A stretch of DNA of 38,197 bases from NCBI GenBank assembly GCA_029233965.1, contig JARGOP010000030.1, positions 1 to 38,197 of the forward strand, given 5' to 3'. Shown here piece by piece: positions 8,573-26,300 of the stretch. Below the pieces are notes generated by a model. The model was given only the letters and a program-made list of their open reading frames with translations, was not told where the DNA came from and did not search any database. Within the stretch, counting starts at the first letter, position 1, and the number at the start of each line of letters is the position of its first letter. The position numbers and the translations under genes are program-made. Source of the DNA: Verrucomicrobiales bacterium. Its GTDB lineage: Bacteria > Verrucomicrobiota > Verrucomicrobiia > Verrucomicrobiales > DEV007.

Positions 8573-9634
8573 ATGACTGCTTCTGTCCGCCACCTCCGCA
8601 ACGGAGCGGTTTTCCTGGTTCTCATTTGCTGCTGCGCGATTGTCGGATATGTCATCGCCGGGTGGACTTTCGGCGAAGCCGCCTACATGGCGGTCATCAC
8701 CGTCTTCGCGGTGGGATATGAAGAGGTGAACCCGGTGATCACTCCGGGACTGCGAATCTTCACGATGCTTTTTATCATGTTGGGATGCACGGGCTACCTC
8801 TACATCGGAGGCGCGCTCGTACAGTTTTTAATCGAAGGACAAATAGAAACCGCTCTCGGAAACCGGCGTATGACAAAAATGATCAACAAACTCAAGGAAC
8901 ACACCATAATTTGTGGCTATGGCAGGGTTGGCAGAATGCTGGCAGCGGAACTCTGCGAAGCAAACCACCCCTTCGTGGTCATAGATCAAAACGAGAGCCT
9001 CGCCGCTTCCATTAACGAGAAAGGGTATCTTTTTCTCGCGGCTGATGCCACGAGCGAGAAAGCGCTTGTGGAAGCAGGAATTCTCCACGCCAATCAGATC
9101 GCCGTCGTCCTCCCTAATGATTCGCTCAATGTTTTCATTACCCTGAGCGCGAGAAACCTGAACCGTGATCTTACCATCATTGCCCGCGGCATGCTCCCTT
9201 CGACCACGGCAAAACTGAAACAGGCCGGAGCGGACAAGGTCGTCCTTGCGGAGCAAATCGGGGCGGAGCGAATCGCCAGTCTCATCCTGCGTCCGACCGC
9301 CAGTTCCATGATCGCGAACGGAACCCTCCTGACTCACATCGCCAATGATTTCGCGGACCTCGGACTGCAGGTCGAGGAACTTTCCATCCCGGAAGGGTCC
9401 AACCTCGCCGGGCTCACGCTTGCGAATCTGGAAATGAAAGGGAGCAGCGCCTTCCTCATCGTCGCCGTCGTGAAGAAAGACGGAACGAGCATCGACTCCC
9501 CTTCTCTCGATACCAAGCTCGACTCCGGCGACACTCTCATTTCCGTCTGCCACAAAGGCGACGCTCCCGAATTCACGAAAATCTTCGACGTGAAACGGGA
9601 GCTCCAGTATCGCGGCGCGAAACTCGACTCGTAA
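8573..9634 (+). CDS. Two-helix potassium channel with RCK (TrkA-N/TrkA-C) domains and an atypical selectivity filter
   Basis: Protein of 353 residues. Two membrane helices (about 12-30 and 62-84) flank a pore loop, TVFAVGYEEVNP (43-54). The filter reads VGYEE where canonical potassium channels have TVGYGD. It is followed by a Rossmann-type RCK domain with GYGRVG (115-120), a nucleotide-binding acidic end (VVIDQNE) and further strands to about 240. A TrkA-C domain (about 265-345) with LAGLTLANLEM and SGDTLISV is clear. The overall architecture matches GsuK/MthK-like ligand-gated channels in the inner membrane. The filter change makes ion selectivity uncertain. It appears to be monocistronic, followed by a palindromic repeat. 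Confidence 0.88.
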   Translation: MTASVRHLRNGAVFLVLICCCAIVGYVIAGWTFGEAAYMAVITVFAVGYEEVNPVITPGLRIFTMLFIMLGCTGYLYIGGALVQFLIEGQIETALGNRRMTKMINKLKEHTIICGYGRVGRMLAAELCEANHPFVVIDQNESLAASINEKGYLFLAADATSEKALVEAGILHANQIAVVLPNDSLNVFITLSARNLNRDLTIIARGMLPSTTAKLKQAGADKVVLAEQIGAERIASLILRPTASSMIANGTLLTHIANDFADLGLQVEELSIPEGSNLAGLTLANLEMKGSSAFLIVAVVKKDGTSIDSPSLDTKLDSGDTLISVCHKGDAPEFTKIFDVKRELQYRGAKLDS

Positions 9635-9680
9635 CAGGATTCAGAGGCTTTCAGAATACGAGAGTCCAAGCACCTTGTCC

Positions 9681-9743
9681 GTAGCGAAGGAGGTCACTCC
9701 TTCGTCTCCTTGCTTCGTCCGAAAGACTCACGTCTTTCGCTAC
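9681..9743. repeat. Palindromic intergenic repeat, copy 2
   Basis: GTAGCGAAGGAGGTCACTCC, continuing TTCG, forms one palindrome and CGAAAGACTCACGTCTTTCG, continuing CTAC, forms a second; together they read as an inverted pair bounded by GTAGCGAA...TTCGCTAC. The words match copy 1 at 207-296. It lies between the convergent channel gene and the large leftward propeller gene, a place where a bidirectional transcript-end structure would fit. Confidence 0.65.
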
Positions 9744-9749
9744 CTTTAG

Positions 9750-12700
9750 CTACTCTTCAATGGGGTGCTCTTTGAGCAAATCCGCCGGAGCATAAAATGC
9801 CTGCTGAGCTCTGGTTGCCTCGCGCACCTCTTTCACCTTCGCCGGAGTGATTACCGAAGCTTTGTTGCCCCAGGTATTTCGAACAAAGGTCAAAACGGCG
9901 GCCATCTCTTTGTCGTCGAGTAATGCTTTGAACGCAGTCATCGGCGGAACTCCCTTCCCGGGATCATAGGTCACTCCGTTGACTTCGATCGGTCCCCAGA
10001 GCCCGTGCAGGGTCAGCTTGATCAAGCGCTCTTCACTTCCCGTGACCCAGTCACTTGCGACGAGCGGCGGATAAATATTCACGATCCCCAATCCGGTCGC
10101 CTGATGACAGGTCACGCAGTGAGCATCACGATGAAAGACTTCCGACCCTAGCTGATAGACCTTCGCTTCCGCCTTCGAGAAATGAGTCGGCACGTTGACT
10201 TCGATTTTCTCCTCGACCTGTTCGATCGGACTGGTGACCACGTTGTTCACCGGATCGGCAACATCCCAATGATGCTCCACGGTTTTTGCAGCAATCACGG
10301 CATGAGGCTCAGGCGAAGCCAAGACCGTATTCAGCAGATCCCGGTCGCGGACGTTGAACTGTTGATGAACCCAGAGGGCTTCGAGAAGATGGCGGGCGTG
10401 ATCCTTATTTTGAGGATCCCACTGTTTGACCCATTCCCGGACGGCAGGAATCACGCTACCGAGGGGGCGCTCACTGAGCTCGACCCGGGTGCGGTGTCGA
10501 ACCCCGGTGACAGGATGAGTCAGATTATCGAGCAGCGCAGCCACGGGCTCGCCATCAATCGCGACCGGTTTCTGCAGAGGGCGGCCCTCGTAGACGATGC
10601 GATAGACACGCCCATGACGTTTGTCCCGGTTGGGGTCGCGGATATTGTGCTGCATGTGACCGATGATGACGTTGTGCCAGTCTGCCACGTAAAGCGCCCC
10701 GTCTTCGCCGAAGATCGCATCGGTGGGGCGGAAATTCTTGTCGGTGCTCACCAGCATTTCATCGGTCGGAGTGCCCCAGACCTCACCGGGAGCGAACTCC
10801 TTCATAACTTCTTTGGGCGGCTCGTTTCGCTTCGCCTGCTCCATGATGGTTCCCTTGAAGCCATCCCGATGGAGCTTGTATTGCTTGATTCCCAGAAATC
10901 CGATCGTGTTGCAGATCAGGAAATTTCCCTGCATTTCATCGGGAAAGTTGGCACTCGCAACGATTTCATTCGCGGGAACGGGTCGAACCTCTTTCGTGAG
11001 GAGAGGGAACATTTTAAATCCTTCACCATCCGGCCGGACCTGATAGGAGCGCCCACCAGTGCCGTCGTTCGCATAGAGGTAGCCCCAGTCATCGAAACTC
11101 GTCCCGTGAGGATTCGGCGAATTGGCGGCATGAAAAGTGATCGTGTAGCGCCGTGGATCGAAGCGATACATCCCCGAGGCGGTCGACTCGAGAGAAGGCC
11201 CCCGGGGATGCTCGTGGTTGTGCTGAAGGAAGATACCGCTTTGCCAATAGATTCCGCCATCAGGACCGAAGGTCAGATTGTTCGCGGCATGGTGAGTGTC
11301 GGAAGAACCGATGCCTTGAAACAACACATACCGGACATCGGCGACATCATCCCCGTCCGTGTCTTTCAAAAAGAGAATGTCAGGCTGTGAGGTCACAACA
11401 ACGCCGCCGTTCCAGAAGGTGAAGCCGAGAGGATTGTGCACTTTCGCAAACTCGGTCGTCCGGTCGGCAGTGCCGTCTTTGTCGTCATCATGCAGAATGA
11501 GAAGCGCATCGTTCATCTCTTTGAGTGGCTCCCATTTTGGATAGGTCGCCCAGGCCGCGACCCAGAGACGTCCTTTGCCATCGACCTGCATCTGCACCGG
11601 ATTCACCAGCTCGGGGAACTTCTTCTCGTCCGCGAAGAGATTGACCTTGAAGCCCTCGGGAACAGTCATCATGGAAAGGCCTTCCTCTCCACTCACATAG
11701 TCGAGATTGCCTTCCTTCTCGGCACTGGAGCTCTTGCTTCCTCCTCCGACGTTAGAAATCACGGGCACGGGGTCCGGCACATTGCTGTCGTCCACTTTCC
11801 AGTCGCTCCCGTTCGCTTTTGCCCGGATCAGCGGGTCACGATTGTTGCTCATGACGTCCAACATCACGAGTTCGTGCCGGAGAACTTCCGCATTGGTTTG
11901 ATCGTTCACGAATTTCAAAGTGGAGCGCCCGCCCCAGATATCATTGCCATCCGTCGCCCGGTAGCGGTTGTGCCAGTACCAGTTCTTGTCGAGAACCGCT
12001 TCACGAGTCGCTGCGAGAAGTTCGACATCGTCACTTGCGCTGCCATTGATTGCTTCCGCAATGATGCGCCCCACGTGGCGGTTTCCCGCTTCGTTGAGAT
12101 GAATGCCATTGATCGTAAGCGGCTCTTCCTCCGCTTCGAAAAGCTCCCTCGTCGGATGATAGAGATCAACGAAGGCCACTCCCTCGTGAGCCGCCACCTT
12201 CTGCATCGAAGCCGTGTAGAGAGCAATTCGCTGGTTGTTCTCCGAGCCATCGGGAAGATTCGGATCGTTCAGATTCTCATGAGCGATCGGGCTGAAGAGA
12301 ACGATGCGGGCGAAGTCTTTTCCGTTGGATTTGATGCCGCGATAAGTCTCGATCATCTCTGCGAGTTTCTTTTCAAACTCCTCGATTCCGGCCGCTCCGG
12401 CGAAAGACTCGTTGTAGCCGAAGAAAGCAAAAATCACATCGGCCTCGACGTGCCTCAGGTAGTCATTCATCGGCATGAACCCCTTGCTTCGGGGATATCG
12501 GTCAATGCGGTCACCGGTCAGGCTGAGGTTACGAAATGAGAGTTCTTTGTCAGGATTTACCGCCTGGAGGTGAGTCTCCATCCAGCCGTCGTGCTGCATC
12601 CGGTCGGCGAGTCCGTTGCCGATCACAGCAATGCGGTCCTCTTTCTGAAACGCAAACGGTTCAGGATCGCGGTAGTCGGCCGGAACCGGCTCGGGCAGGA

Positions 12701-13675: not shown

Positions 13676-15037
13676 ATGCCGAAAGTCTTCCTCAGAACCT
13701 TTGGATGCCAGATGAACGAACGCGACTCCGAGCAGGTCGCCCAAATGTTCGTCGAGCGTGGCTTCACGGTCACGCCTCAAGCCGATGACGCGGATGTCGT
13801 TCTCATGAATACCTGCTCCGTGCGTGACCAGGCAGAGCAAAAGGCTCTCGGTAACATGCGTCACCTCGGGAAGCACCGGAAAAAGAATCCCAATATCGTC
13901 TACGGCATGATGGGATGCATGGCGCAGAGCCGCGGCGATCAACTTCTCGAAGAAGTCCCCCATCTCGATCTCGTCGCCGGGACGCAAAAGTACCACCGGG
14001 TCGTCGATCATTGCGTCGACCTCATGAGGGCGAAGGAGGAAGCGCAAATGGACGACCTTCGCCGCCCCATCATTGATACCGACGAAGAAGAAAACTCTCA
14101 GAACACGATTCGTGACCACGTTGTGAAAGAGCACGGGGTGAGCGAGTTCGTCAGCATCATGCAGGGCTGCAACATGAAGTGCACCTTCTGCATCGTGCCC
14201 TACACACGCGGACCCGAGCGGGCCCGCCCCATTGCGGAGATCGTCGAGGAATGCAAACGCCTCGCCGATCAGGGAGTGCGTGAAGTCACCCTCCTCGGTC
14301 AGATTGTGAACCTCTACGGCCGCCACGAGTTCCCCAAGGTCGACGGGAAGAGCCCGTTTGTGCAGCTTCTCGAAGCAGTTCACGAAATCGACGACATCAA
14401 GCGCATCCGTTTCACTTCCCCCCACCCGATTGGCTACAAGGAGGATGTCATCGAAGCTTTCACCTATCTCCCGAAGCTCGTCGACCACGTTCATTTCCCG
14501 ATGCAGTCGGGCTCGGACCGCATCCTCAAAGCAATGCATCGTCCCTACAAAGCGCAGCGTTTCATCGACATCTGCGACAAGATGAAAGAAGCCCGGCCCG
14601 GTATCGCCATCTCCACCGACATCATCGTCGGTTTCCCCGGCGAAACGGAAGAGGACTACCTTGAAACGCGCAAAGCGGTCGAGCACGTGCAGTTCGACCA
14701 GGCCTTCATCTTCCGCTATTCAAAGCGCAAAGATACCCCGGCTGCGGAAATGGACGGCCAGCTCCCTGAGCGGGTCAAGGAGGAGCGCAATCAGGATCTT
14801 CTCCAACTCGTGAACGAAATCGTCCAGAAGAAAAACAGCCAGCTCATCGGATCCACCCAGGAAGTCCTTTGTGAAGGCCCGAGCCGTTACAATAAAGAGA
14901 CCCTGACCGGTCGCACGAGAACGAACCGGATTGTCATCTTTGACGGCGATGCAGACCGCATGGCCGGGCAGCTCTTCAACGTCAAAATCACCGAAAGCAC
15001 CGGCTACACCCTCTATGGGGATCCGGTCTTGCAATAA
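13676..15037 (+). CDS. miaB: tRNA-2-methylthio-N6-dimethylallyladenosine synthase MiaB
   Basis: Radical-SAM methylthiotransferase of 453 residues that thiomethylates the isopentenyl-adenosine at position 37 of tRNAs. The UPF0004 domain carries Cys11 (RTFGCQMNERDS), Cys47 (NTCSVRDQAEQK) and Cys81 (GCMAQ) for the auxiliary [4Fe-4S] cluster. The radical-SAM motif is CNMKCTFC (Cys165, 169, 172) followed by VPYTRGPERAR. The sequence VTLLGQIVNLYG matches the family's LLGQNVNSY block with one substitution. The C-terminal TRAM-like region begins near residue 390. Length and motifs distinguish it from RimO and MtaB. Monocistronic or followed by a short gap to the next membrane protein gene. Confidence 0.95.
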   Translation: MPKVFLRTFGCQMNERDSEQVAQMFVERGFTVTPQADDADVVLMNTCSVRDQAEQKALGNMRHLGKHRKKNPNIVYGMMGCMAQSRGDQLLEEVPHLDLVAGTQKYHRVVDHCVDLMRAKEEAQMDDLRRPIIDTDEEENSQNTIRDHVVKEHGVSEFVSIMQGCNMKCTFCIVPYTRGPERARPIAEIVEECKRLADQGVREVTLLGQIVNLYGRHEFPKVDGKSPFVQLLEAVHEIDDIKRIRFTSPHPIGYKEDVIEAFTYLPKLVDHVHFPMQSGSDRILKAMHRPYKAQRFIDICDKMKEARPGIAISTDIIVGFPGETEEDYLETRKAVEHVQFDQAFIFRYSKRKDTPAAEMDGQLPERVKEERNQDLLQLVNEIVQKKNSQLIGSTQEVLCEGPSRYNKETLTGRTRTNRIVIFDGDADRMAGQLFNVKITESTGYTLYGDPVLQ

Positions 15038-18323: not shown

Positions 18324-19114
18324 AACGCCGCCTCATTCACTCCACCGACATCGCCGTTTCCTCCCTCGGCCTCGGCACCGTGAAATTCGGCCGGAACCAG
18401 CAGGTCAAATACCCGGCCGGATTTGAACTTCCCTCCGATGAAGAAATCCTCGCCCTGCTCGATCTCGCGCAGGAGCAGGGCATCAACTTGATCGATACCG
18501 CCCCTGCTTACGGCATCAGCGAAGAACGTCTCGGCAAACTGCTCGGCTCACGACGGGACGAGTGGGTCATCATGTCGAAGGCCGGCGAGGACTTCATCGA
18601 TGGTGCGTCGCACTTCGATTTTTCACCCTGCGCGATCACCGAAAGTGTTGAGCGAACCCTGTTGCGTCTCCGGACCGACAGGGTTGAATCGCTGCTGCTG
18701 CACTCGGACGGCAATGACCTCGAGGTGCTCGACCATTCCGGAGCCATTGATGCTCTTCAAAAGCTGAAAGAGCAGGGTCTCATCCGGAGCTACGGAATCT
18801 CGACAAAGACGGTCGCCGGCGGCCTCCGCGCGATCGAACTGGGCCTCGATGCGGTCATGGTGACTTACAATCCCTGGCACACCGAGGAGGAATCCATCCT
18901 CGACTCAGCCCTCGAAAGCGGAACCTCCGTCTTTCTCAAAAAGGCGCTTGGAAGCGGCTGGTTTGGCGACGGGGAAGCTCCTGACGATCCCGTGACAGAG
19001 GCTTTCCGTTTTGTCTTTTCCCATCCGGCGACAACCTCGGCGATTGTCGGAACAATCAATCCGAAGCACCTCCGGGAAAATTGCGAAGCCCTGACGGCGA
19101 TCGATGGAGATTAG
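18320..19114 (+). CDS. Aldo/keto reductase
   Basis: I start at the ATG that overlaps the preceding TGA; a farther upstream start would duplicate coding for the FAD gene. The 264-residue barrel enzyme shows the catalytic tetrad: Asp59 and Tyr64 (DTAPAYG), Lys87 (MSKAG) and His128 (LLLHSDG). The C-terminal SAIVGTINPKHLREN fits NADPH binding. It is likely an NAD(P)H-dependent carbonyl reductase acting with the uxaC operon; the substrate is unknown. Confidence 0.88.
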   Translation: MKRRLIHSTDIAVSSLGLGTVKFGRNQQVKYPAGFELPSDEEILALLDLAQEQGINLIDTAPAYGISEERLGKLLGSRRDEWVIMSKAGEDFIDGASHFDFSPCAITESVERTLLRLRTDRVESLLLHSDGNDLEVLDHSGAIDALQKLKEQGLIRSYGISTKTVAGGLRAIELGLDAVMVTYNPWHTEEESILDSALESGTSVFLKKALGSGWFGDGEAPDDPVTEAFRFVFSHPATTSAIVGTINPKHLRENCEALTAIDGD

Positions 19115-19167
19115 GAGAAAAAAGGTTGGGTCCGTCCCCGGAGTGAGGCAACTTACCGCATCCTTCT

Positions 19168-20010
19168 ATGCCCGAATCCTCCCCGATTTTTTTCGACAGC
19201 CACATGCACACGCCCCTCTGCAAGCATGCCGAGGGACATCCCATCGAATACATGGAGCGCGGAGTCGAACAGGGACTCGCCGGCATCATCATGACCTGCC
19301 ACAGCCCGATGCCGAATCAATTTTCGCACCGGGTGAGGATGTCTCCGGAGCAGTTCAACGAGTATGTCGCCATCGTGCAGGAGGCTGCCGACGCCGCTCC
19401 CGATGGATTCGAGGTGCGCCTCGGGATGGAAAGCGACTACTTTCCCGGGAAAGAGAAATGGCTCAGCGCGCTGCACGAAAAAGCGGACTTCCATTATATC
19501 CTCGGATCCGTGCATTGGCACATTCCGGAGTATCTCGATGCCTTCTGGCGCGGTGATCCGATGGCCTTTCGTCGTCAGTATTTCGAGCACCTTGCCGATT
19601 CGGCGGAGTCCGGACTCTTTGATTCTCTCGCCCACCCTGACCTCGTCAAGAACGCCAGCCCCGACGACTGGGACTTTGAAAAGATGCGCCCTTTCATTGC
19701 CAGGGCCCTTGATAGAATCGCCAAAACCGGAGTGGCGATGGAGCTCAACACGTCCGGCCTTAACAAGGCTTACCCGGAAATGAATCCGGGACCGAAAATG
19801 CTGACGATGATGGCAGAGCGCGACATCCCGGTCGTGATTGGCTCGGATTCACACACTCCCCTTCGTGTCGGAGATCAATTCCCGCGCGCTCTCGAAAACC
19901 TGCAGAAGGCGGGTTTTGATACCGTCAGCGTATTCCGGGAACGACGGAGAATGGACTACCCGATCAAACTGGTTCAGGAAAGTCTCACGATTCCGAAATC
20001 GGCATTTTAA
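19168..20010 (+). CDS. PHP-domain phosphatase, histidinol-phosphatase-like
   Basis: Protein of 280 residues. The metal-binding N terminus DSHMHTPLCKHA gives His12, His14 and His20; further PHP motifs are MTCHSPMP, GMESDY, GSVHWH, LAHPDL and the late GSDSHTP. This is the HisJ/HisK-type histidinol phosphatase layout (histidine biosynthesis), although other PHP phosphoesterases look alike and no other his genes are present. The stop codon overlaps the stop of the convergent PqqD-like gene by three bases (the shared string is TTAA), leaving no room for a terminator. Confidence 0.82.
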   Translation: MPESSPIFFDSHMHTPLCKHAEGHPIEYMERGVEQGLAGIIMTCHSPMPNQFSHRVRMSPEQFNEYVAIVQEAADAAPDGFEVRLGMESDYFPGKEKWLSALHEKADFHYILGSVHWHIPEYLDAFWRGDPMAFRRQYFEHLADSAESGLFDSLAHPDLVKNASPDDWDFEKMRPFIARALDRIAKTGVAMELNTSGLNKAYPEMNPGPKMLTMMAERDIPVVIGSDSHTPLRVGDQFPRALENLQKAGFDTVSVFRERRRMDYPIKLVQESLTIPKSAF

Positions 20011-20936
20011 TCGAGCCGGGCTTCGATCCCGCCGATCAGCTTTGCAAGAGCAGTCATCTTCTGAACTTCGTAGCGGTAGCCGATCTCGTTGTTCTGGAGA
20101 TGAAACTCGTCCCGGCGGATTCGGCATTCGGCCATCTCGCGCCTCAGGCTTTCCAAATCTTCGAGAGTGGGGGTTGCCGTCGTCGGAGGCTCGGGGGTTG
20201 CCGTCGTCGGAGGCTCGGGAATTGCGTCAGCACTGACAACCGGATCAGCCTTGATCGGCACTGCGGTCGGAACTTCCGGAGCGCGTCCCGCAAGTTCCAG
20301 TTCCAAAATCGGAGTCTCAAGAAGTTCGTTTCCGGTGTGCCGCTCTGCAGGAGGTTTCGAATCCTGATAAAAATATCCCTCGATAGAGGAGCAGACCAGA
20401 TTCACCGGCGGCTCGAGGATAGGCGCAGCAACGTAGGCGATACGGAGAACAGCGAGCGAGAAAAGAACGAGGGCAGAAATTTTCAGAGCGTTCCTCTGCC
20501 AATGATTGGAACCCCCAAAGCGCGCTCTCACCGTGTTTTGAATCTGCTCAGCATTTCCCGCGTGACGGGCGAGAGGTTTTCGATGAGTGAGCGGAACGGT
20601 ATCGGATTCATCATCCGTCACCAGTTCAAAAATCGAATCACATTCGCACAGCACAAGATTCTCGTCATAAAGCCACTGATAGAAATTGGTGAGGCCAACG
20701 GCAGAAAACTCACCCTGGAACTGTCCGTAGATCTCTTTCGCGATTTCTTCAAACGTGCGCTGCCCATCGAAACGACGCATCATTTCATACTGCCACGGCT
20801 TGAGGACAAAGCGCTGCCCGTCGGACACCTTTTCCGCGAGCACCTCCCCGTTCCCGTGCGCGAAGCGCATCTCCTGCCGCGGTCTGAGCCGAAGCGGAAA
20901 GATCTCTGATAAGTGAGCCGGTGAGACTCTATTCAC
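20007..20936 (-). CDS. PqqD-like domain protein with one membrane helix and coiled-coil tail
   Basis: Protein of 309 residues from a GTG at 20936. Residues about 25-105 resemble the PqqD-like winged-helix module (RFVLKPWQYEMMRRFDGQRT then EEIAKEIYG). One membrane helix spans about 151-172. A Pro/Thr-rich hinge contains a tandem PEPPTTAT repeat (240-255). The tail (about 257-309) is a charged amphipathic helix, similar in style to HlyD-type adaptors. PqqD-like modules bind leader peptides or partner enzymes in RiPP systems and occur in PVC M50/HlyD export clusters; here neither a radical-SAM enzyme nor M50 or HlyD is adjacent. It lies downstream of the subtilase gene but has its own promoter-like sequence. 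Function unknown; a membrane tether that recruits a protein or peptide is my inference. Confidence 0.7.
   Translation of the reverse strand: MNRVSPAHLSEIFPLRLRPRQEMRFAHGNGEVLAEKVSDGQRFVLKPWQYEMMRRFDGQRTFEEIAKEIYGQFQGEFSAVGLTNFYQWLYDENLVLCECDSIFELVTDDESDTVPLTHRKPLARHAGNAEQIQNTVRARFGGSNHWQRNALKISALVLFSLAVLRIAYVAAPILEPPVNLVCSSIEGYFYQDSKPPAERHTGNELLETPILELELAGRAPEVPTAVPIKADPVVSADAIPEPPTTATPEPPTTATPTLEDLESLRREMAECRIRRDEFHLQNNEIGYRYEVQKMTALAKLIGGIEARLD
20173..20220 (+). repeat. Two-copy 24-base in-frame tandem repeat
   Basis: The unit beginning GTTGCCGTCGTCGGAGGCTC is repeated at 20173 and 20197, differing only at the last base. On the leftward coding strand it encodes the PEPPTTAT repeats of the PqqD-like protein linker, so it should vary in copy number by slippage without breaking the frame. 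Confidence 0.85.
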
Positions 20937-20963
20937 GAAAGGTTAATTGTTAATTTTACAAAA

Positions 20964-20992
20964 ATTATAAATTTATTCCGTAATTAGTCCAA
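20964..20992 (-). promoter_or_regulatory. Sigma70-like promoter for the PqqD-like gene
   Basis: On the leftward strand TTGGAC (20987-20992) and TATAAT (20964-20969) are separated by exactly 17 bases in an AT-rich gap. Transcription would start around 20957, about 20 bases before the GTG. The perfect -10 box is the main support; the -35 matches only its TTG part. Confidence 0.5.
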
Positions 20993-21032
20993 CTCTTTTC
21001 GGAAAGAATTTTCCGGCTTTTCGATCAGGCGA

Positions 21033-21803
21033 TCAACGCGATGAAGCCAGGATGCCCAGCAACGGCTTGATCAGAGACGGCTCGATCCCCGGAAACGCCG
21101 AAAGAAGCCTTGCGATACGCCCCGCAACCAGAGGTGCGGCGTAGCTGCTGCCGGTCTCTGTTTTCATTTGTCCATCCAGCCAGGGAACCTCAACCCGCTC
21201 CCCGCGGGCGAAGAGGGAAACCATTTCGCCCTGCTTCGCGAAAAGTTCATCCGGCTTACAGTCAATTCCCTGAACACTGATTACCGATGGAAAATAGGCC
21301 GGCCACTCGCGGATCGACGAATTCACATTGCTGCATGCCGCCACAACCTGAACTCCGGCAAGGTAGGCCTCATCGACCCAGTCTTTGTAATCCATGACGT
21401 AGCGGGCAAGCCCCCGACATCCAAAACTGCAATTGATGACTTGGTATCCCCTCGCGATTGCCTGACTCACGCATTCAGCGATGACGAAACTCCGGGCGTG
21501 ATTCGTGCTGTCGAGCGCCCGAAAGCTGCCAATGATCGCTCCGGGTGCTTCATTGGAAAGCAGACTCGCCACTGCGGTCCCGTGGCCATAGACGTCGGTT
21601 CCTCCGTTTTCGTTGATATGCAAGCTCACCCCGTCACAGGAAATGGCGAGATCGTCCTCCAGTTGCATTCCATGCAACGCCGGATGGGAAGGGTCCACGC
21701 CCGAGTCGATCACCGCTACCTTTACCCCCGCCCCGTCGCCGGACCGAATCGCTTCGGCCGCTGCAGCCAGATCAGGCCATCTTGGATCCTGATCAGCTGA
21801 CAT
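21033..21803 (-). CDS. Cytosolic subtilisin-like serine protease (S8), no propeptide
   Basis: Starting at the ATG at 21803, the protein has 256 residues. The catalytic triad is visible: Asp33 (VAVIDSGVD), His74 (YGHGTAVAS) and Ser220 (GSSYAAPLVAG), with the oxyanion Asn159 in AACSN. There is no signal peptide, no prodomain and no C-terminal extension, so it should act inside the cell. This resembles the protease modules of peptide-maturation systems such as PatA rather than secreted subtilases. The start lies within the end of the GAF gene (11-base overlap), indicating translational coupling. Likely substrate is a cellular or cluster-encoded protein; this is inference. Confidence 0.88.
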   Translation of the reverse strand: MSADQDPRWPDLAAAAEAIRSGDGAGVKVAVIDSGVDPSHPALHGMQLEDDLAISCDGVSLHINENGGTDVYGHGTAVASLLSNEAPGAIIGSFRALDSTNHARSFVIAECVSQAIARGYQVINCSFGCRGLARYVMDYKDWVDEAYLAGVQVVAACSNVNSSIREWPAYFPSVISVQGIDCKPDELFAKQGEMVSLFARGERVEVPWLDGQMKTETGSSYAAPLVAGRIARLLSAFPGIEPSLIKPLLGILASSR

Positions 21804-22395
21804 CACTCAATCCCAGGGCTGAAGAGAGAAGAGTCTCATTCACCAACCTCTCGACCACGTTCGAAACCAGAGCGAGAGCCTCGATGTCTGCTGAACTGAA
21901 GCCGTTTTTCCCGACACCGTTCTCGACTTCCTCCAACTGAACGCATGAGATGACGCCGCGCAGGCCAAACGCGAAATAGAGAGGAACCGCAAGGAGTGCC
22001 GTCGTGTGTTTTGACATTTTCCGATCGAGCGTATCATCATGACCATTGCTCGCTTGAATGTCATTTTCGCAATACGGCTGCTGCTGCGAAAAAACCATCG
22101 AGATGATGCCTGAACCAATCGGCTGTTCGAATCCGATCAGGGAATCGGCGTCATCGCCTGAGTTGTAGGACGCGATGAGGTATTTCTCCTCGCTGTCAGC
22201 AAGCCAAACCGTTCCTTCGCAACCGCCGACATGGGCAAACGCTTCGCGCAGAAGCGAGATCGCGACCTCATCGAAAAGCCCGATGAGGTCAGTCGGAGTC
22301 CCGGTGCTGATCCAGGACTCCAAGTGCTCGATCAAGTCGCCACCGAGGCGATTGAATTCAGCATTCCTGAGAAGGCGGGTCCTGGCTCCGATCAT
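21793..22395 (-). CDS. GAF-domain sensor-like protein
   Basis: Protein of 200 residues. Residues about 40-185 show GAF-fold patterns: LLREAFAHVGGCEGTVWLAD, FEQPIGSGIISMVF, ALLAVPLYFAFGLRGVISCV and the closing helix SADIEALALVSNVVERLVNE. No output domain follows, so it could be a free-standing ligand or redox sensor. A cysteine is present in GGCEG, but no known ligand set is obvious. Its ATG shares one base with the upstream TGA (TGATG), and its 3' end overlaps the subtilase start. Confidence 0.75.
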   Translation of the reverse strand: MIGARTRLLRNAEFNRLGGDLIEHLESWISTGTPTDLIGLFDEVAISLLREAFAHVGGCEGTVWLADSEEKYLIASYNSGDDADSLIGFEQPIGSGIISMVFSQQQPYCENDIQASNGHDDTLDRKMSKHTTALLAVPLYFAFGLRGVISCVQLEEVENGVGKNGFSSADIEALALVSNVVERLVNETLLSSALGLSDVS

Positions 22396-22616
22396 CAGGA
22401 TTCCGCCTGGAGCTTGCTGACCAATTCGTGGAGCGCTGTTTCGTTTCCGAGAATTTCGGGAAGCAATCCCTCCCTTTCAGCAGCCGTGAGCGTGCCCTGT
22501 GCGAACTTCTGGATCAGTTCGGCCTGGCCTTCAGATAGAGGATTCGAAGAATGGCCGGACACTTCGGGTCCAAGATTCTCGAGAAATTGGGCGAGGATTG
22601 AGAAATCGTTATTCAT
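22395..22616 (-). CDS. 73-residue acidic protein, first gene of the GAF-subtilase cluster
   Basis: The reading frame begins ATGAATAACGAT and ends in a TGA that overlaps the GAF start. The product is helical and acidic with motifs FSILAQFLENLG, GQAELIQKFAQGTLTAAERE and ETALHELVSKL. The central segment resembles the short helical unit found in anti-sigma-like and regulatory proteins, without the zinc cysteines. There is no signal peptide. Its position before a sensor, a protease and a PqqD-like protein makes a substrate, leader or regulatory partner possible. No family recognised. Confidence 0.65.
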   Translation of the reverse strand: MNNDFSILAQFLENLGPEVSGHSSNPLSEGQAELIQKFAQGTLTAAEREGLLPEILGNETALHELVSKLQAES

Positions 22617-22673
22617 GTCAGTTAATCAGCGGAGAGTTGGATGTTGTTCACGGGATCGACGCTCCGAATACTA

Positions 22674-22689
22674 CCCTTATGCAAAAGGG
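22674..22689 (-). promoter_or_regulatory. Hairpin in the 5' leader of the GAF cluster
   Basis: CCCTT and AAGGG flank a six-base loop (ATGCAA on the plus strand) about 60 bases upstream of the 73-residue ORF. It could be an operator or a leader-RNA hairpin. Only the symmetry is seen; function is not. Confidence 0.3.
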
Positions 22690-22796
22690 ATGATCTTTCG
22701 TGAAAATATTTATCCTTTTCGGGGGCTCACGCCAGTTAAAACTAATTAATTATTGTTATTATTGTTTTTATATTGAATTGCCTGTAATATCCTGAT

Positions 22797-22892
22797 AGGA
22801 TTTCCCGGGAACAGGCGCCTTCGGGCAGCTAGTTTTGTGTTGAGGGGTTACAGGCGGCATCGATCGGGAACGGTCGGTGCCGCCTTTCTTTT
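22797..22892 (+). ncRNA. Candidate small structured RNA with promoter and terminator
   Basis: Two overlapping promoter-like pairs precede it: TTGTTT-17-TAATAT (22762-22790) and TTGAAT-17-TAGGAT (22773-22801). The body includes the palindrome TTCCCGGGAA and a GCC-TTCG-GGC tetraloop hairpin and ends in a strong terminator (22853-22892). It has no ATG. I do not recognise an Rfam family. Alternatively, it may be part of a longer leader or attenuator, because upstream GCCTGTAA (22780-22787) can pair with TTACAGGC (22848-22855), which overlaps the terminator stem. Confidence 0.4.
22853..22892 (+). terminator. Rho-independent terminator
   Basis: GGCGGCA (22853-22859) and TGCCGCC (22878-22884) form a seven-base GC-rich stem, extended inside by GATCG/CGGTC-type pairing, and are followed directly by TTTCTTTT. 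It ends no known gene on the plus strand, so it points to a non-coding transcript. Confidence 0.7.
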
Positions 22893-22973
22893 AGCCGGGA
22901 TACACCGATAAGCTTGGCCTCGAAGAGGCTAACTTGTGATTCCCAGGGCAACGCCGGAAGAGCGGAGGAATCC

Positions 22974-23024
22974 CGAAAAGGAAAACGGCCCGGCACTCAG
23001 ACTTTCATCCGCTGCACCGGGCCG
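22974..23024 (-). terminator. Rho-independent terminator on the leftward strand without an assigned gene
   Basis: CGGCCCGG (22986-22993) and CCGGGCCG (23017-23024) form a perfect eight-base stem; on the leftward strand the stem is followed by TTTTCCTTTT. The sequence to its right, up to smc, has no leftward gene, so a short leftward RNA or a boundary against readthrough is suggested. Confidence 0.5.
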
Positions 23025-23291
23025 CCCCGTTCCGCACAAAGTTTCAGAGCTCTCAGGAGAGAAACACCCCCCGGAATTTCGAGTCTTTAAAAGGCCTCAA
23101 AACCGTCTCACACCCTAACGTATCTCCCATTTAAGAGCGCGCAATAAAAAAGTGTGTTTTTTTCCAATATTGTCACTTAGTTTTAAAAACTTACGCAGAT
23201 TTGCGATTCAGGGAGCGTAAAAAGAATTTCCAAAATTAACGCGCCGGGCCCAGTTTTTACTCGACACTCCTCTAGAACCGCTCAATGTAAG

Positions 23292-23349
23292 GGAAGGTTT
23301 ATCATTTTTGAGAATTAAATTCTTAGATTTGAGATATTTATACTTTCCC
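23292..23349 (+). promoter_or_regulatory. Inverted repeats in the smc upstream region
   Basis: An AGAAT-TAA-ATTCT palindrome (23311-23323) sits inside an imperfect outer repeat, GGGAAGG...CTTTCCC, just before the smc ATG. TATACT (23339-23344) would place a transcription start only a few bases before the ATG, giving an almost leaderless mRNA, but no good -35 is present. Confidence 0.35.
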
Positions 23350-23353
23350 TGCC

Positions 23354-26300
23354 ATGCGCCTGAAGTCGTTAGAGATCCACGGATTCAAATCTTTTGCTGA
23401 CAAGACCAAGCTCGAATTCCACGAGGGAGTTACGGGAATTGTCGGCCCGAACGGCTGCGGAAAGTCTAACATTGTCGACTCGATGCGTTGGGTTCTCGGT
23501 GAGACTTCGGCAAAAGCGCTCCGTGGAGGAGAGATGGCCGACGTCATTTTCAACGGCACCGACAAGCGCTCCCCGCTTGGAATGGCGGAAGTTACCCTGA
23601 CATTGTCAGACTGCGCTGATGCGCTCAAGACTGATTACGATGAGGTGGCTCTCGGTCGCCGCGTCTTTCGTGACGGAAAGAGCGAATATCTTATCAACAA
23701 GCAGCCGTGCCGGCTCAAAGACATTCACAGCCTGCTCATGGACACCGGCATCGGTCGCTCCAGCTACTCCATCATGGAGCAGGGAAAGATCGACATGCTT
23801 CTCAGTTCGAAGCCGGAAGACCGGCGCGCCGTGTTCGAAGAGGCCGCCGGGATCACAAAATACAAATCTCAGAAAAAAGAGGCCCTGCGAAAACTCGACT
23901 ACACCGAGGCAAACCTGATTCGCATCCGTGACGTCATTGCCGAGAACGAACGACAGATTCGCTCCCTCTCCCGCCAGGCGTCGAAAGCAAAGCGATACCA
24001 GGGGCTCTTCGACGATGTGAAGACTCTCGAGCTTCACCTCAGCCACAAACAATGGCGCGAACTCCGGGCTGAAAAATCTGAACTCAACACGTCAATCAAC
24101 ACTCTTCGAGTTCAGCAGGACAATCTCGAAGACGACATTGAGAAGCGGCAGGCACAAATGGCTGCGGCCCGGGTCGAGTATCAGGAAATCGAAAACCGTC
24201 TCAGCGAGCTGCAGGCGGAACTTGCCCGGCTCGAAAACGAAATCGGCACGGCGAACAACCGCATCGAGTTCAACGGGGAGCGGACTCATGAGTTGAGTGT
24301 TCTCATCAAGCGCAACGAAGAGAACATTGCCGAAGCCTCCGCGAAGAAGGAACGACAGGAATCCGACATTGAAGCGGCGGACCGTCAGCTTGCCGCTGTG
24401 CAGGAACGCATCACTGAGGAAAGGTCGAAAGTTGAACTGCTGGAGCAGAAAACAAAAGAAGCCCGCTCCACCCGCGAGGTCGTGAATCAGCGTCTCCGTG
24501 ATCTCGAAGAGGAACGAAGTCAGCTCAAAAGCCGGATCGGAAGTCTCGATGCAACAATTGAAACCAACGAAAGTCAACTTGAGTCAGATCAGCAGCGCTC
24601 CCGGCAGCTGACCGATGAAATTTCCCGCCTTCAGCAGGACGAAGGCACCCGCCGGTCCGACGCGACCGAGCTCAAGGATCGGATCACAAACCATCAGCAG
24701 TCGATCGAGGAGTTCGAGGAAAACCTCGCGGAGATGGACCAAAAGTATCACCAGGCGAAGCGTGCCGCGGTAACGATGCAGGAGGACCTTTCCGCCCTTC
24801 ATCAGCTTCATGCTGAAAAGCGTTCGCGCCTCGAGGTGCTTGAACAGCTCATTGCCGAAGGCGGGGGGTTTGAAAAAGGAACGCAAACCGTGCTCAAAGG
24901 CGTCGATGAATCAGGCCGCTTTGAGGGCAAAGTGCTGGGTCCCCTCTCCCGCTCTATTGAAGTGGATCTTCAATACGCAGAAGCGATTGAGGCCGCTCTC
25001 GGTCGACGCCTTCAGACTGTTCTCATCTCCGATCTTGAAGCGACCGGGCAAATCATCACCGCGCTCCGAGAGGACCATCTCGGACACGCATCCCTCATTG
25101 CGCAGTCAGATCTCAAATCAACACGAGTCGAAAAATCATCCGAGGCCCCGCTGGGAGCCATCGGATGGGCGATCGACAAAGTGAAGGTGGAAGAGCGATT
25201 CAACGCCCTTCTCTCTTCGCTACTGAATGGGGTCCTCCTCGCGGAAGATCTCAACACCGCCCTGCGGCTGCGGGAAAAACATCCCGACCTTGCGGTGGCC
25301 TCACTAGATGGCACCTTCGTCACGAAAGAAGGCATCGTTCAGGGTGGTCGCAGCGGCGATGAGTCCGTTTCCGTGCTCAAGATGCAAAGTGAGATTGGCG
25401 AGCTTCGAAAGGTTTCCGACTCGTTGAAAGAAGAAGTCACAACGCGCCAGACGCGACGGGACGAACTCAATGCCCGCGTCGACCAACTCGAAGACACCCT
25501 CCAGGTCGCCCGCGAGCGTCTCCAGCAAAAGCGCGTCGCTTCCTCCACTCTTGAGGGCAAGCTCGCCTTGATCGAGCGCGACCTCAATCAGTTCCGCAAC
25601 AAGATCGAAAGCCTGGAATGGGAGCAAAAGGAGGTGGGCGAGCGCAAAGCAAAAGTATCCTCGGATCGGGATTCCAATGTGATTGAGCGGGATAAAGCGG
25701 TCTCACGGGTCGGTGAGCTCAGCGAGGAATCGACTTCACTCGCAGAACAACTGCGAACCGCGCAGAGGGACGAGGAAGCGCTCACCGAAGAAGTAACCGA
25801 AGCGCGAACCTGCCTCGCCGTCGAAGACGGCACCCGCCAGAATCTGGAAGAGCAGCGCGCTCCGATGATCGCCCGCCTCCGGGAACTCGAAGAACTGATC
25901 CATCGTGCCAGCGAAGAGATCGGGAACTACAGGGAACGAATCACGCGCGCGAATGAAGAGTCCGCGCAACTCCAACAGCAGATCACCGACTGGAAAACCA
26001 GGGCTGAAACGTCCTCCGAAGAACGCGCCGCGATCCTCATCGAAAAGAGCGGCTACTCGGCAAAAATCGAAGAAGGCGAAGAGGAGCTCACCCGCAAACG
26101 GAAAGCCGTTCAGGAAGTCGCCAGTCAGCGGGGCAAAGAGGAAGTAAAAACAGCTCAACTCGATCTCGGCCTTGAGAATCTGGAGCGGACCTGCCGTGAT
26201 CGCTATCGCACCGAGCTCGAATTTTTTGAACCCGACAGCCATGCCCTGCTCCTTGCCATCGAAGAGCGTCGCAAAAACGGTGCGGCCCGCCCCGCTCCCA

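Follow-up and report, generated by a model that had tools for sequence, protein, structure and literature searches.

A candidate extracytoplasmic function sigma factor switch with a small anti-sigma-like protein and a GAF-subtilase pair in a Verrucomicrobiales bacterium

What does a subtilase that appears to be cytosolic act on when it is encoded in one compact cluster with a putative sensor and a very small protein? The question is raised by four genes in a 38,197-nucleotide stretch of DNA from a Verrucomicrobiales bacterium (GenBank assembly GCA_029233965.1, contig JARGOP010000030.1; the whole stretch is called the window), which encode a 73-residue protein (A73), a GAF-domain protein, a subtilase of family S8 (S8) and a PqqD-like membrane protein (RRE-TM, with a predicted recognition element, RRE, of the kind found with ribosomally synthesized and post-translationally modified peptides, RiPPs; Table 1). 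All four reading frames are open on the minus strand; as a preliminary description had it, the A73 and GAF genes share one base (TGATG), and the GAF and subtilase genes overlap by 11 bases (ATG start; 14 with the GTG start). That description had missed a promoter of extracytoplasmic function (ECF) type before A73 and the gene of an ECF sigma factor. With a probability of roughly 0.45, we propose that these parts form an ECF sigma switch, in which a GAF-gated cytosolic subtilase cleaves A73 and so frees the sigma factor. The sigma-A73 pairing, the promoter, the conserved operon, the intact protease and the RRE fold have computed support; for the switch to work, A73 would have to inhibit the sigma factor, this sigma factor would have to read TGCATA-N16-CGTC and the GAF protein would have to gate the subtilase.

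The pairing of A73 with a sigma factor is well supported. The window protein scores 66.9 bits against TIGR02937, above the cut-off of 42.9, which makes it an ECF sigma factor; Sigma70_r2 matches at 29.9 (cut-off 24), and region 4 is weak (E 0.07-0.1, below cut-off). Outside the genus, A73 is often adjoined by an ECF sigma factor gene, and a profile built from the window sigma gene found a sigma gene beside A73 in 19 non-redundant loci (L056, L059, L065, L066, L076, L077, L078, L082, L083, L084, L087, L124, L126, L127, L128, L131, L184, L185 and L186; the duplicates L121, L123 and L134 were excluded). The A73 match in L128 is weak (E 7e-5), the two genes of L184 lie about 0.7 kb apart, and L065 and L066 are extra divergent copies in G015, a genome of the window's genus. 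GAF and/or S8 genes lie within about 3 kb in 14 of these 19 loci, in four arrangements: sigma-A73-GAF-S8 all running one way (L056, L059, L082 and L087, among others), sigma-A73 facing GAF-S8 (L076-L078, L185), sigma-A73-GAF and an opposed S8 (L066), and GAF-S8-A73 and an opposed sigma (L065). All 15 genus contigs that hold both genes have sigma on the strand of A73 and upstream of it, with 9.5-23 kb between S8 and sigma. In G043 and G054, of another genus, a sigma factor 65% and 70% identical to that of the window is encoded directly before A73; the sigma-A73-GAF genes of G054 sit on a cut contig. Among the matches listed, a close sigma orthologue occurs in 29 of the 32 genomes with a subtilase of this cluster's type (A type, at least 59% identity; the best rows of the subtilase match list) and in 2 of the other 63 genomes (G018, G054).

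The genes themselves keep together. All 18 loci of the genus that were examined (L037-L054) have A73, GAF and S8 in this order, so that the neighbourhood on which the preliminary description had staked its case does recur in other genomes. The RRE-TM gene is present in 16 of the 18 (not in L042 and L044). Loci of other genera retain sigma-A73-GAF-S8 and lack the RRE-TM protein, which is thus not part of the core of the cluster. The named relatives with the subtilase are 18 loci from metagenome-assembled genomes, labelled Verrucomicrobiales, Akkermansiaceae, Verrucomicrobiaceae or merely Verrucomicrobia/Verrucomicrobiota. All counts of labelled loci use open reading frames (ORFs) labelled by hidden Markov models; a simple gene caller is misled where loci are GC-rich and selects ORFs on the wrong strand (for example in L085 and L126).

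Two of the loci have further features of their own. L184 and L186, from other families, pair sigma with A73 and show no GAF-S8 in their 3.2 kb of sequence, and in L184 a gene that looks by eye like one for a cyclic-nucleotide-binding protein adjoins A73. The unusual GAF-S8-A73 arrangement of L065 is followed by a gene (8726-10933) whose start looks DUF4062-like.

What, then, is A73? It is most likely a stand-alone anti-sigma domain rather than a peptide substrate, and we regard its functioning as an anti-sigma factor as highly probable. A73 has no Pfam family match, and its model, nearly all helical, has four predicted helices and a mean pLDDT (predicted local distance difference test) of 75.8. 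In one profile comparison, hhalign aligned residues 30-70 over 41 columns with the N-terminal parts of 24 FecR-type proteins at a probability of 79% (E 1.6e-5), and the controls, 7 unrelated alignments and 10 column-shuffled A73 alignments, all gave at most 0.7%. The 24 proteins came from 30 loci in four genomes of the genus; L205-L209 (no ORF of at least 300 residues over the match) and L212 (longest ORF in the wrong frame) were left out, and six N-termini were trimmed by hand. Upstream of each of the 24, on its own strand, lies an ECF gene, from which we infer that they are anti-sigma factors. On this alignment A73 resembles a FecR-type anti-sigma domain minus its membrane and sensor parts.

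The structural comparisons point the same way at low scores. In the 43 Foldseek rows for A73 an anti-sigma domain, that of DdvA, stands at the top, with RslA at rank 35 and RsiW at rank 39. Realignment of 17 rows put RslA first (Z 4.7, 1.6 A, 45 residues), RsiW second (Z 3.8) and DdvA fourth (Z 2.8, tied); residues 29-73, a putative three-helix bundle, superpose at these low Z values on RslA and RsiW. A search of PDB sequences with the A73 profile gave as its best match 19 positions of an engineered helical construct (E 0.0011), then weaker short helices, and was not used. The fold of I9 propeptides is alpha/beta. A73 was ruled out as an I9-type subtilase propeptide, its model being nearly all helical.

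The promoter would connect the cluster with a sigma factor of this kind. TGCATA-N15/16-CGTC precedes A73 in 20 of 22 genus loci in its strict form and in all 22 in its loose form, 30-81 nucleotides (nt) from the start codon (38-42 in 15 of 22); outside the genus the counts are 6 of 18 and 10 of 18, and shuffles averaged 0.025 and 0.045 for the loose form. Its spacing and its CGTC core are ECF-like. The A73 starts, 22 in the genus and 18 elsewhere, were chosen from labelled ORFs, alignment being used to place internal starts; the count omits L126, L127 and L128 (start unclear) and genus genomes with short loci only. No such promoter was found before A73 in the divergent loci L065, L066, L076-L078 and L184-L186. 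The strict pattern lies near none of 61 S8 starts and none of 18 RRE-TM starts, and a single loose match before the 15 B-type GAF genes described below was taken as chance. Across the window genome the pattern has 13 matches, compared with 0 for the reversed control, and for 8 of the 13 a gene was called that starts no more than 450 nt downstream.

Among possible further targets of this promoter element, an operon of GrrM type for a RiPP is a solid one. It lies on contig C23 of the window genome (L036, 9273-16246), with relatives in L069, L070 and L071, and comprises a GrrM/OscB-type radical SAM enzyme (433 bits in L036, cut-off 310), an MNIO enzyme with a C-terminal extension, a GAF-S8 pair and a divergent ABC transporter; the precursors of L069-L071 end in Trp/Arg/Asn/Cys-rich repeats. 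In all 5 genus loci retrieved, 4 of them with a strict match, the element precedes the radical SAM gene; it was not found before that gene in L072, which is from another genus and has a different radical SAM enzyme. The RiPP connection of the preliminary description does not hold at the cluster, and it reappears elsewhere, in a paralogous GAF-S8 pair within an operon with the same promoter motif. Other candidate targets, named by eye, are exported proteins and an amidase-like protein.

Two observations belong beside these. Homologous exported-looking proteins in L157 (G008) and L180 (G026), 52% identical over 281 residues, are encoded 29-40 nt after a match to the ECF-type promoter and may be members of the regulon. 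Between that promoter and the radical SAM gene of the RiPP operon lies, judged from an alignment, a small conserved ORF of about 50 residues (DRIRSVRVG..QPLQYRIDLVR; L036 about 14170-14320, with matching stretches of L071 and L069).

The remaining two proteins of the proposed switch are its putative sensor and its protease. The GAF protein matches GAF_2 above cut-off (E 3.9e-7), and the Cys109-Glu110-Asn111 that it shares with B-type GAF proteins (frequencies 0.86-1.00) is possibly a redox or ligand site. The subtilase matches Peptidase_S8 (PF00082; E 1.9e-24, 86.9 bits, cut-off 21.8) over residues 25-249, and, with the S8 domain filling these residues, there is no room for a propeptide. All 60 aligned homologues have its triad, D34/H75/S221, and 58 of them have N160. 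The likeness to peptide-maturation subtilases proposed earlier is borne out by matches to QhpE (NF049966; E 6.4e-25, 87.8 bits, cut-off 165) and PatA (E 3.6e-9, 35.9 bits, cut-off 421), both below cut-off; the mycosin model scored better (E 4.9e-29), also below its cut-off. A role in anti-phage defence was considered and rejected: for the subtilase, PADLOC returned a match to its general subtilase model (E 1.5e-17) and one to IetS that spans 41 residues (E 2.4e-8), and it gave no match for the other four proteins.

A GAF protein with a protease is, as had been supposed, a recurrent pair. The window genome has three GAF-S8 pairs: A, in this cluster; B, adjoining an L,D-transpeptidase-like protein; and C, inside the RiPP operon. 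The YkuD L,D-transpeptidase-like neighbour occurs in 13 of 15 B-type loci (GAF-S8 pairs without A73; the short contig L061, which shows only S8, was not counted). In L035 (7225-9869) and 12 further B-type loci GAF-S8 is followed by this protein, of about 410 residues, the first 190 of which precede what looks by eye like an internal membrane- or signal-like segment.

These paralogous pairs bear on a serious rival, in which sigma and A73 are the switch and GAF-S8 is its sigma-controlled output, the protease acting on envelope-directed or RiPP substrates such as RRE-TM or a precursor held by its RRE. The A73-GAF-S8 operon lies behind a sigma-type promoter, GAF-S8 pairs occur beside the L,D-transpeptidase-like protein and inside the RiPP operon, the subtilase resembles QhpE and PatA, and the proteins encoded downstream of A- and B-type pairs both have an N-terminal part followed by one membrane- or signal-like segment (by eye for B). 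However, in several rearranged loci without an RRE protein GAF-S8 stays by sigma-A73, which fits a regulatory partner better, and we consider the output reading unlikely, if the best of the alternatives.

The sigma switch would work as follows. A73, as a soluble anti-sigma domain, would keep the ECF sigma factor inactive. A ligand in the cytosol, or a change of redox state, would be sensed by the GAF protein, which would gate the subtilase paired with it. Once active, this subtilase would cut A73, perhaps in the conserved, unstructured segment around PEVSGH that joins helix 1 to the helical bundle, and the freed sigma factor would transcribe the A73-GAF-S8 operon from TGCATA-N16-CGTC, giving more protease and more anti-sigma factor as feedback. 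It would also transcribe other genes, including the GrrM/MNIO RiPP operon where present, and RRE-TM, as an addition at genus level, may recruit either a peptide or the subtilase to the membrane. Put in general terms, a ligand-gated subtilase from its own operon would destroy a stand-alone FecR-like anti-sigma factor in one cytosolic step, replacing membrane-tied regulated proteolysis; that this holds and that the same sigma factor also switches on a RiPP operon carrying a second GAF-subtilase pair is, as a joint claim, somewhat more tentative than the switch itself.

Several findings weigh against this reading. It is gene linkage alone that points to A73, rather than another protein, as what S8 acts on, and the B- and C-type GAF-S8 pairs are without A73. 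Three genomes (G014, G032 and G053) have the A-type cluster and no close sigma factor that we found; for 5 of the 19 pairs of sigma and A73, neither GAF nor S8 appears in the stretch available (3.2 kb for L184 and L186; contigs of 6.4-8.6 kb for L124, L126 and L128), and three further sigma loci (L085, L125 and L129) are without a labelled A73. A73 is also rare beyond the order: in a sample of 387 genomes from across the phylum it was found in 5, counting that of the window. As to its identity, Foldseek gave no significant match to the A73 model (E 1.3 or worse), all structural Z values with anti-sigma folds are below 5, and in 30 A73 members no Pfam anti-sigma model scored above cut-off (zf-HC2 in 1 of 30, E 0.096, below cut-off). 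In class I anti-sigma domains (ASDI), according to the accessible part of PMC7406223, helix 4 is C-terminal to the bundle; the extra helix of the A73 model (residues 3-14) is N-terminal to it, and we therefore call A73 anti-sigma-like and not a canonical ASDI. The strict promoter pattern is found near 4 of 16 YkuD, 2 of 62 sigma, 1 of 6 radical SAM and 1 of 54 GAF starts as well, some of these off-target matches falling inside coding sequence. In six relatives a stricter form gave 25 matches compared with 13 for the reversed control, and because this genome-wide enrichment is only mild, single further targets are unproven.

How does such a switch compare with known systems? Like other ECF sigma factors with soluble anti-sigma factors, it has a small cytosolic anti-sigma-like protein and a sigma-type promoter before the operon; unlike them, it has a GAF protein and a subtilase in that operon, and A73 has no zinc motif and an additional N-terminal helix. 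Soluble anti-sigma factors are released by conformational change, partner switch or mechanosensing, according to the accessible part of the review PMC8999054, which names no dedicated operon protease for them and mentions proteolysis of ChrR with an unclear role. FecR-type pairs share the N-terminal domain to which the A73 profile aligns, but A73 is without their membrane segment and FecR domain, so that the signal would come from the cytosol. In ECF54-type groups an ECF gene likewise lies near a subtilase gene, and proteolytic control of the sigma factor has been proposed (PMC8999054, as far as accessible). By analogy, the subtilase could degrade the sigma factor itself and keep the system off, A73 stabilizing or presenting the sigma factor. 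That proposal, however, covers groups discussed in the same text as lacking an anti-sigma factor, a mode that is mainly actinobacterial, whereas here an anti-sigma-like partner is found at 19 sigma loci; we hold sigma degradation to be improbable. In the bufferin (Buf1) clusters, too, an MNIO RiPP is tied to sigma and anti-sigma genes (PMC12452194, in the part available), so that an MNIO operon under the control of a sigma factor is no novelty by itself; there the anti-sigma factor is NrsF, whereas sigma-A73-GAF-S8 lies apart from the RiPP operon and is linked to it by the promoter motif. With the cytosolic maturation subtilases QhpE and PatA the window subtilase shares the S8 domain and profile similarity; it differs in scoring below their curated cut-offs and in being paired with a GAF protein. 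A literature search found no title or abstract describing the sigma-A73-GAF-S8 arrangement, which is weak evidence, most subscription papers lying outside the search.

If the sigma switch is real, a dedicated cytosolic protease with its own sensor would add a further self-contained route for releasing a soluble anti-sigma factor, in a compact and portable form with a defined promoter. It would also provide a concrete candidate regulator for the GrrM/MNIO RiPP operon in Verrucomicrobiota and a proposed role for a small protein to which the family libraries used assign no family. All parts but the RRE protein look small and soluble, so that each step can be tested directly.

Table 1. Positions of the cluster, its candidate sigma factor and associated elements in the window
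Feature	Length	Positions	Strand	Remarks
A73	73 aa	22395-22616	-	Candidate soluble anti-sigma factor; predicted helices 3-14, 29-39, 45-56, 59-72
GAF-domain protein	200 aa	21793-22395	-	Pfam; Cys109-Glu110-Asn111 conserved in A- and B-type GAF partners
Subtilase (S8)	257 aa	21033-21806, or ATG start at 21803	-	Intact triad; no propeptide or signal peptide seen
RRE-TM (PqqD-like membrane protein)	309 aa	20007-20936	-	N-terminal RRE/PqqD fold, transmembrane helix, Pro-rich linker, C-terminal hairpin
RRE/PqqD-like domain of RRE-TM	residues 9-98	20643-20912	-	Foldseek, structural alignment
Long hydrophobic helix of RRE-TM, taken as membrane helix	residues 145-173	20418-20504	-	Model; hydrophobicity by eye
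Conserved C-terminal helical hairpin of RRE-TM	residues 258-308	20013-20165	-	Conservation, model
ECF sigma factor, candidate partner of A73	234 aa	37200-37904	-	14.6 kb upstream of A73, same strand
ECF-type promoter TGCATA-N16-CGTC		22658-22683	-	41 nt before the A73 start codon
Sigma70-like promoter TGGACT-16-TATAAT before RRE-TM		20964-20991	-	Weak

RRE-TM, confined to the window's genus among the loci seen, is of interest for its N-terminal domain. No Pfam family scored above cut-off, and the ScmD/PqqD-type NCBIfam model gave E 0.0084, far below cut-off. The region might have been an unrelated winged helix; in the predicted structure it has the RRE/PqqD fold. The leading Foldseek match is TbiB1 (5v1v, probability 1.00, E 6.8e-3), with no match at E of 0.001 or below, and structural Z is 8.3 over 85 residues for TbiB1 and 7.3 for PqqD (5sxy). 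Because three non-RiPP enzymes (Rv2067c, GdmN and NovN) score as high or higher (Z 8.6-9.2), the fold alone does not demonstrate peptide binding. Compared with the RRE/PqqD domains of TbiB1, lasso B1, ThcOx and PqqD, that of the window has the same predicted fold but sits on a membrane helix, with a disordered Pro-rich stretch leading to the conserved hairpin, and has no RiPP enzyme among its scanned neighbours. The promoter of its own that the preliminary description had given the gene is present as a sigma70-like site, but it is weak, since four such sites were found in the region compared with 1.8 expected.

A Pfam scan of nine neighbours of the cluster found no peptide-modifying family; seven matched UxaC, DAO, aldo/keto reductase, PHP, SMC, DsbD_N and SET, two had no match, and the gene at 13676-15037 (MiaB-like by eye) was left out. 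An adjacent precursor with a modifying enzyme, the mark of a RiPP cluster, was thus not found among the neighbours scanned. This bears on the preliminary model, a RiPP-like or peptide-processing cassette in which the PqqD-like protein delivers A73 to the subtilase. The RRE fold and the subtilase's similarity to maturation enzymes speak for it, but A73 is conserved to its C-terminal end and has no variable core, which rules it out as a RiPP precursor; its resemblance to anti-sigma domains, its pairing with an ECF sigma factor and the missing RRE protein in other-genus loci argue in the same direction, and we judge the cassette very unlikely.

Between the cluster and smc lie two further elements, both on the plus strand. 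No Rfam match was found up to E 0.5 in 19000-24500. Positions of about 22792-22909 may encode a small RNA: in 10 of the 25 loci scanned, a terminator-like hairpin with covariation comes after a conserved GUUGAGGGGUUA stretch. The second element (22974-23043), about 60 nt long and almost invariant, contains GCCCCGTTCCGCACAAA and a stem of 7 pairs with very little variation; it occurs in 18 of the 25 loci.

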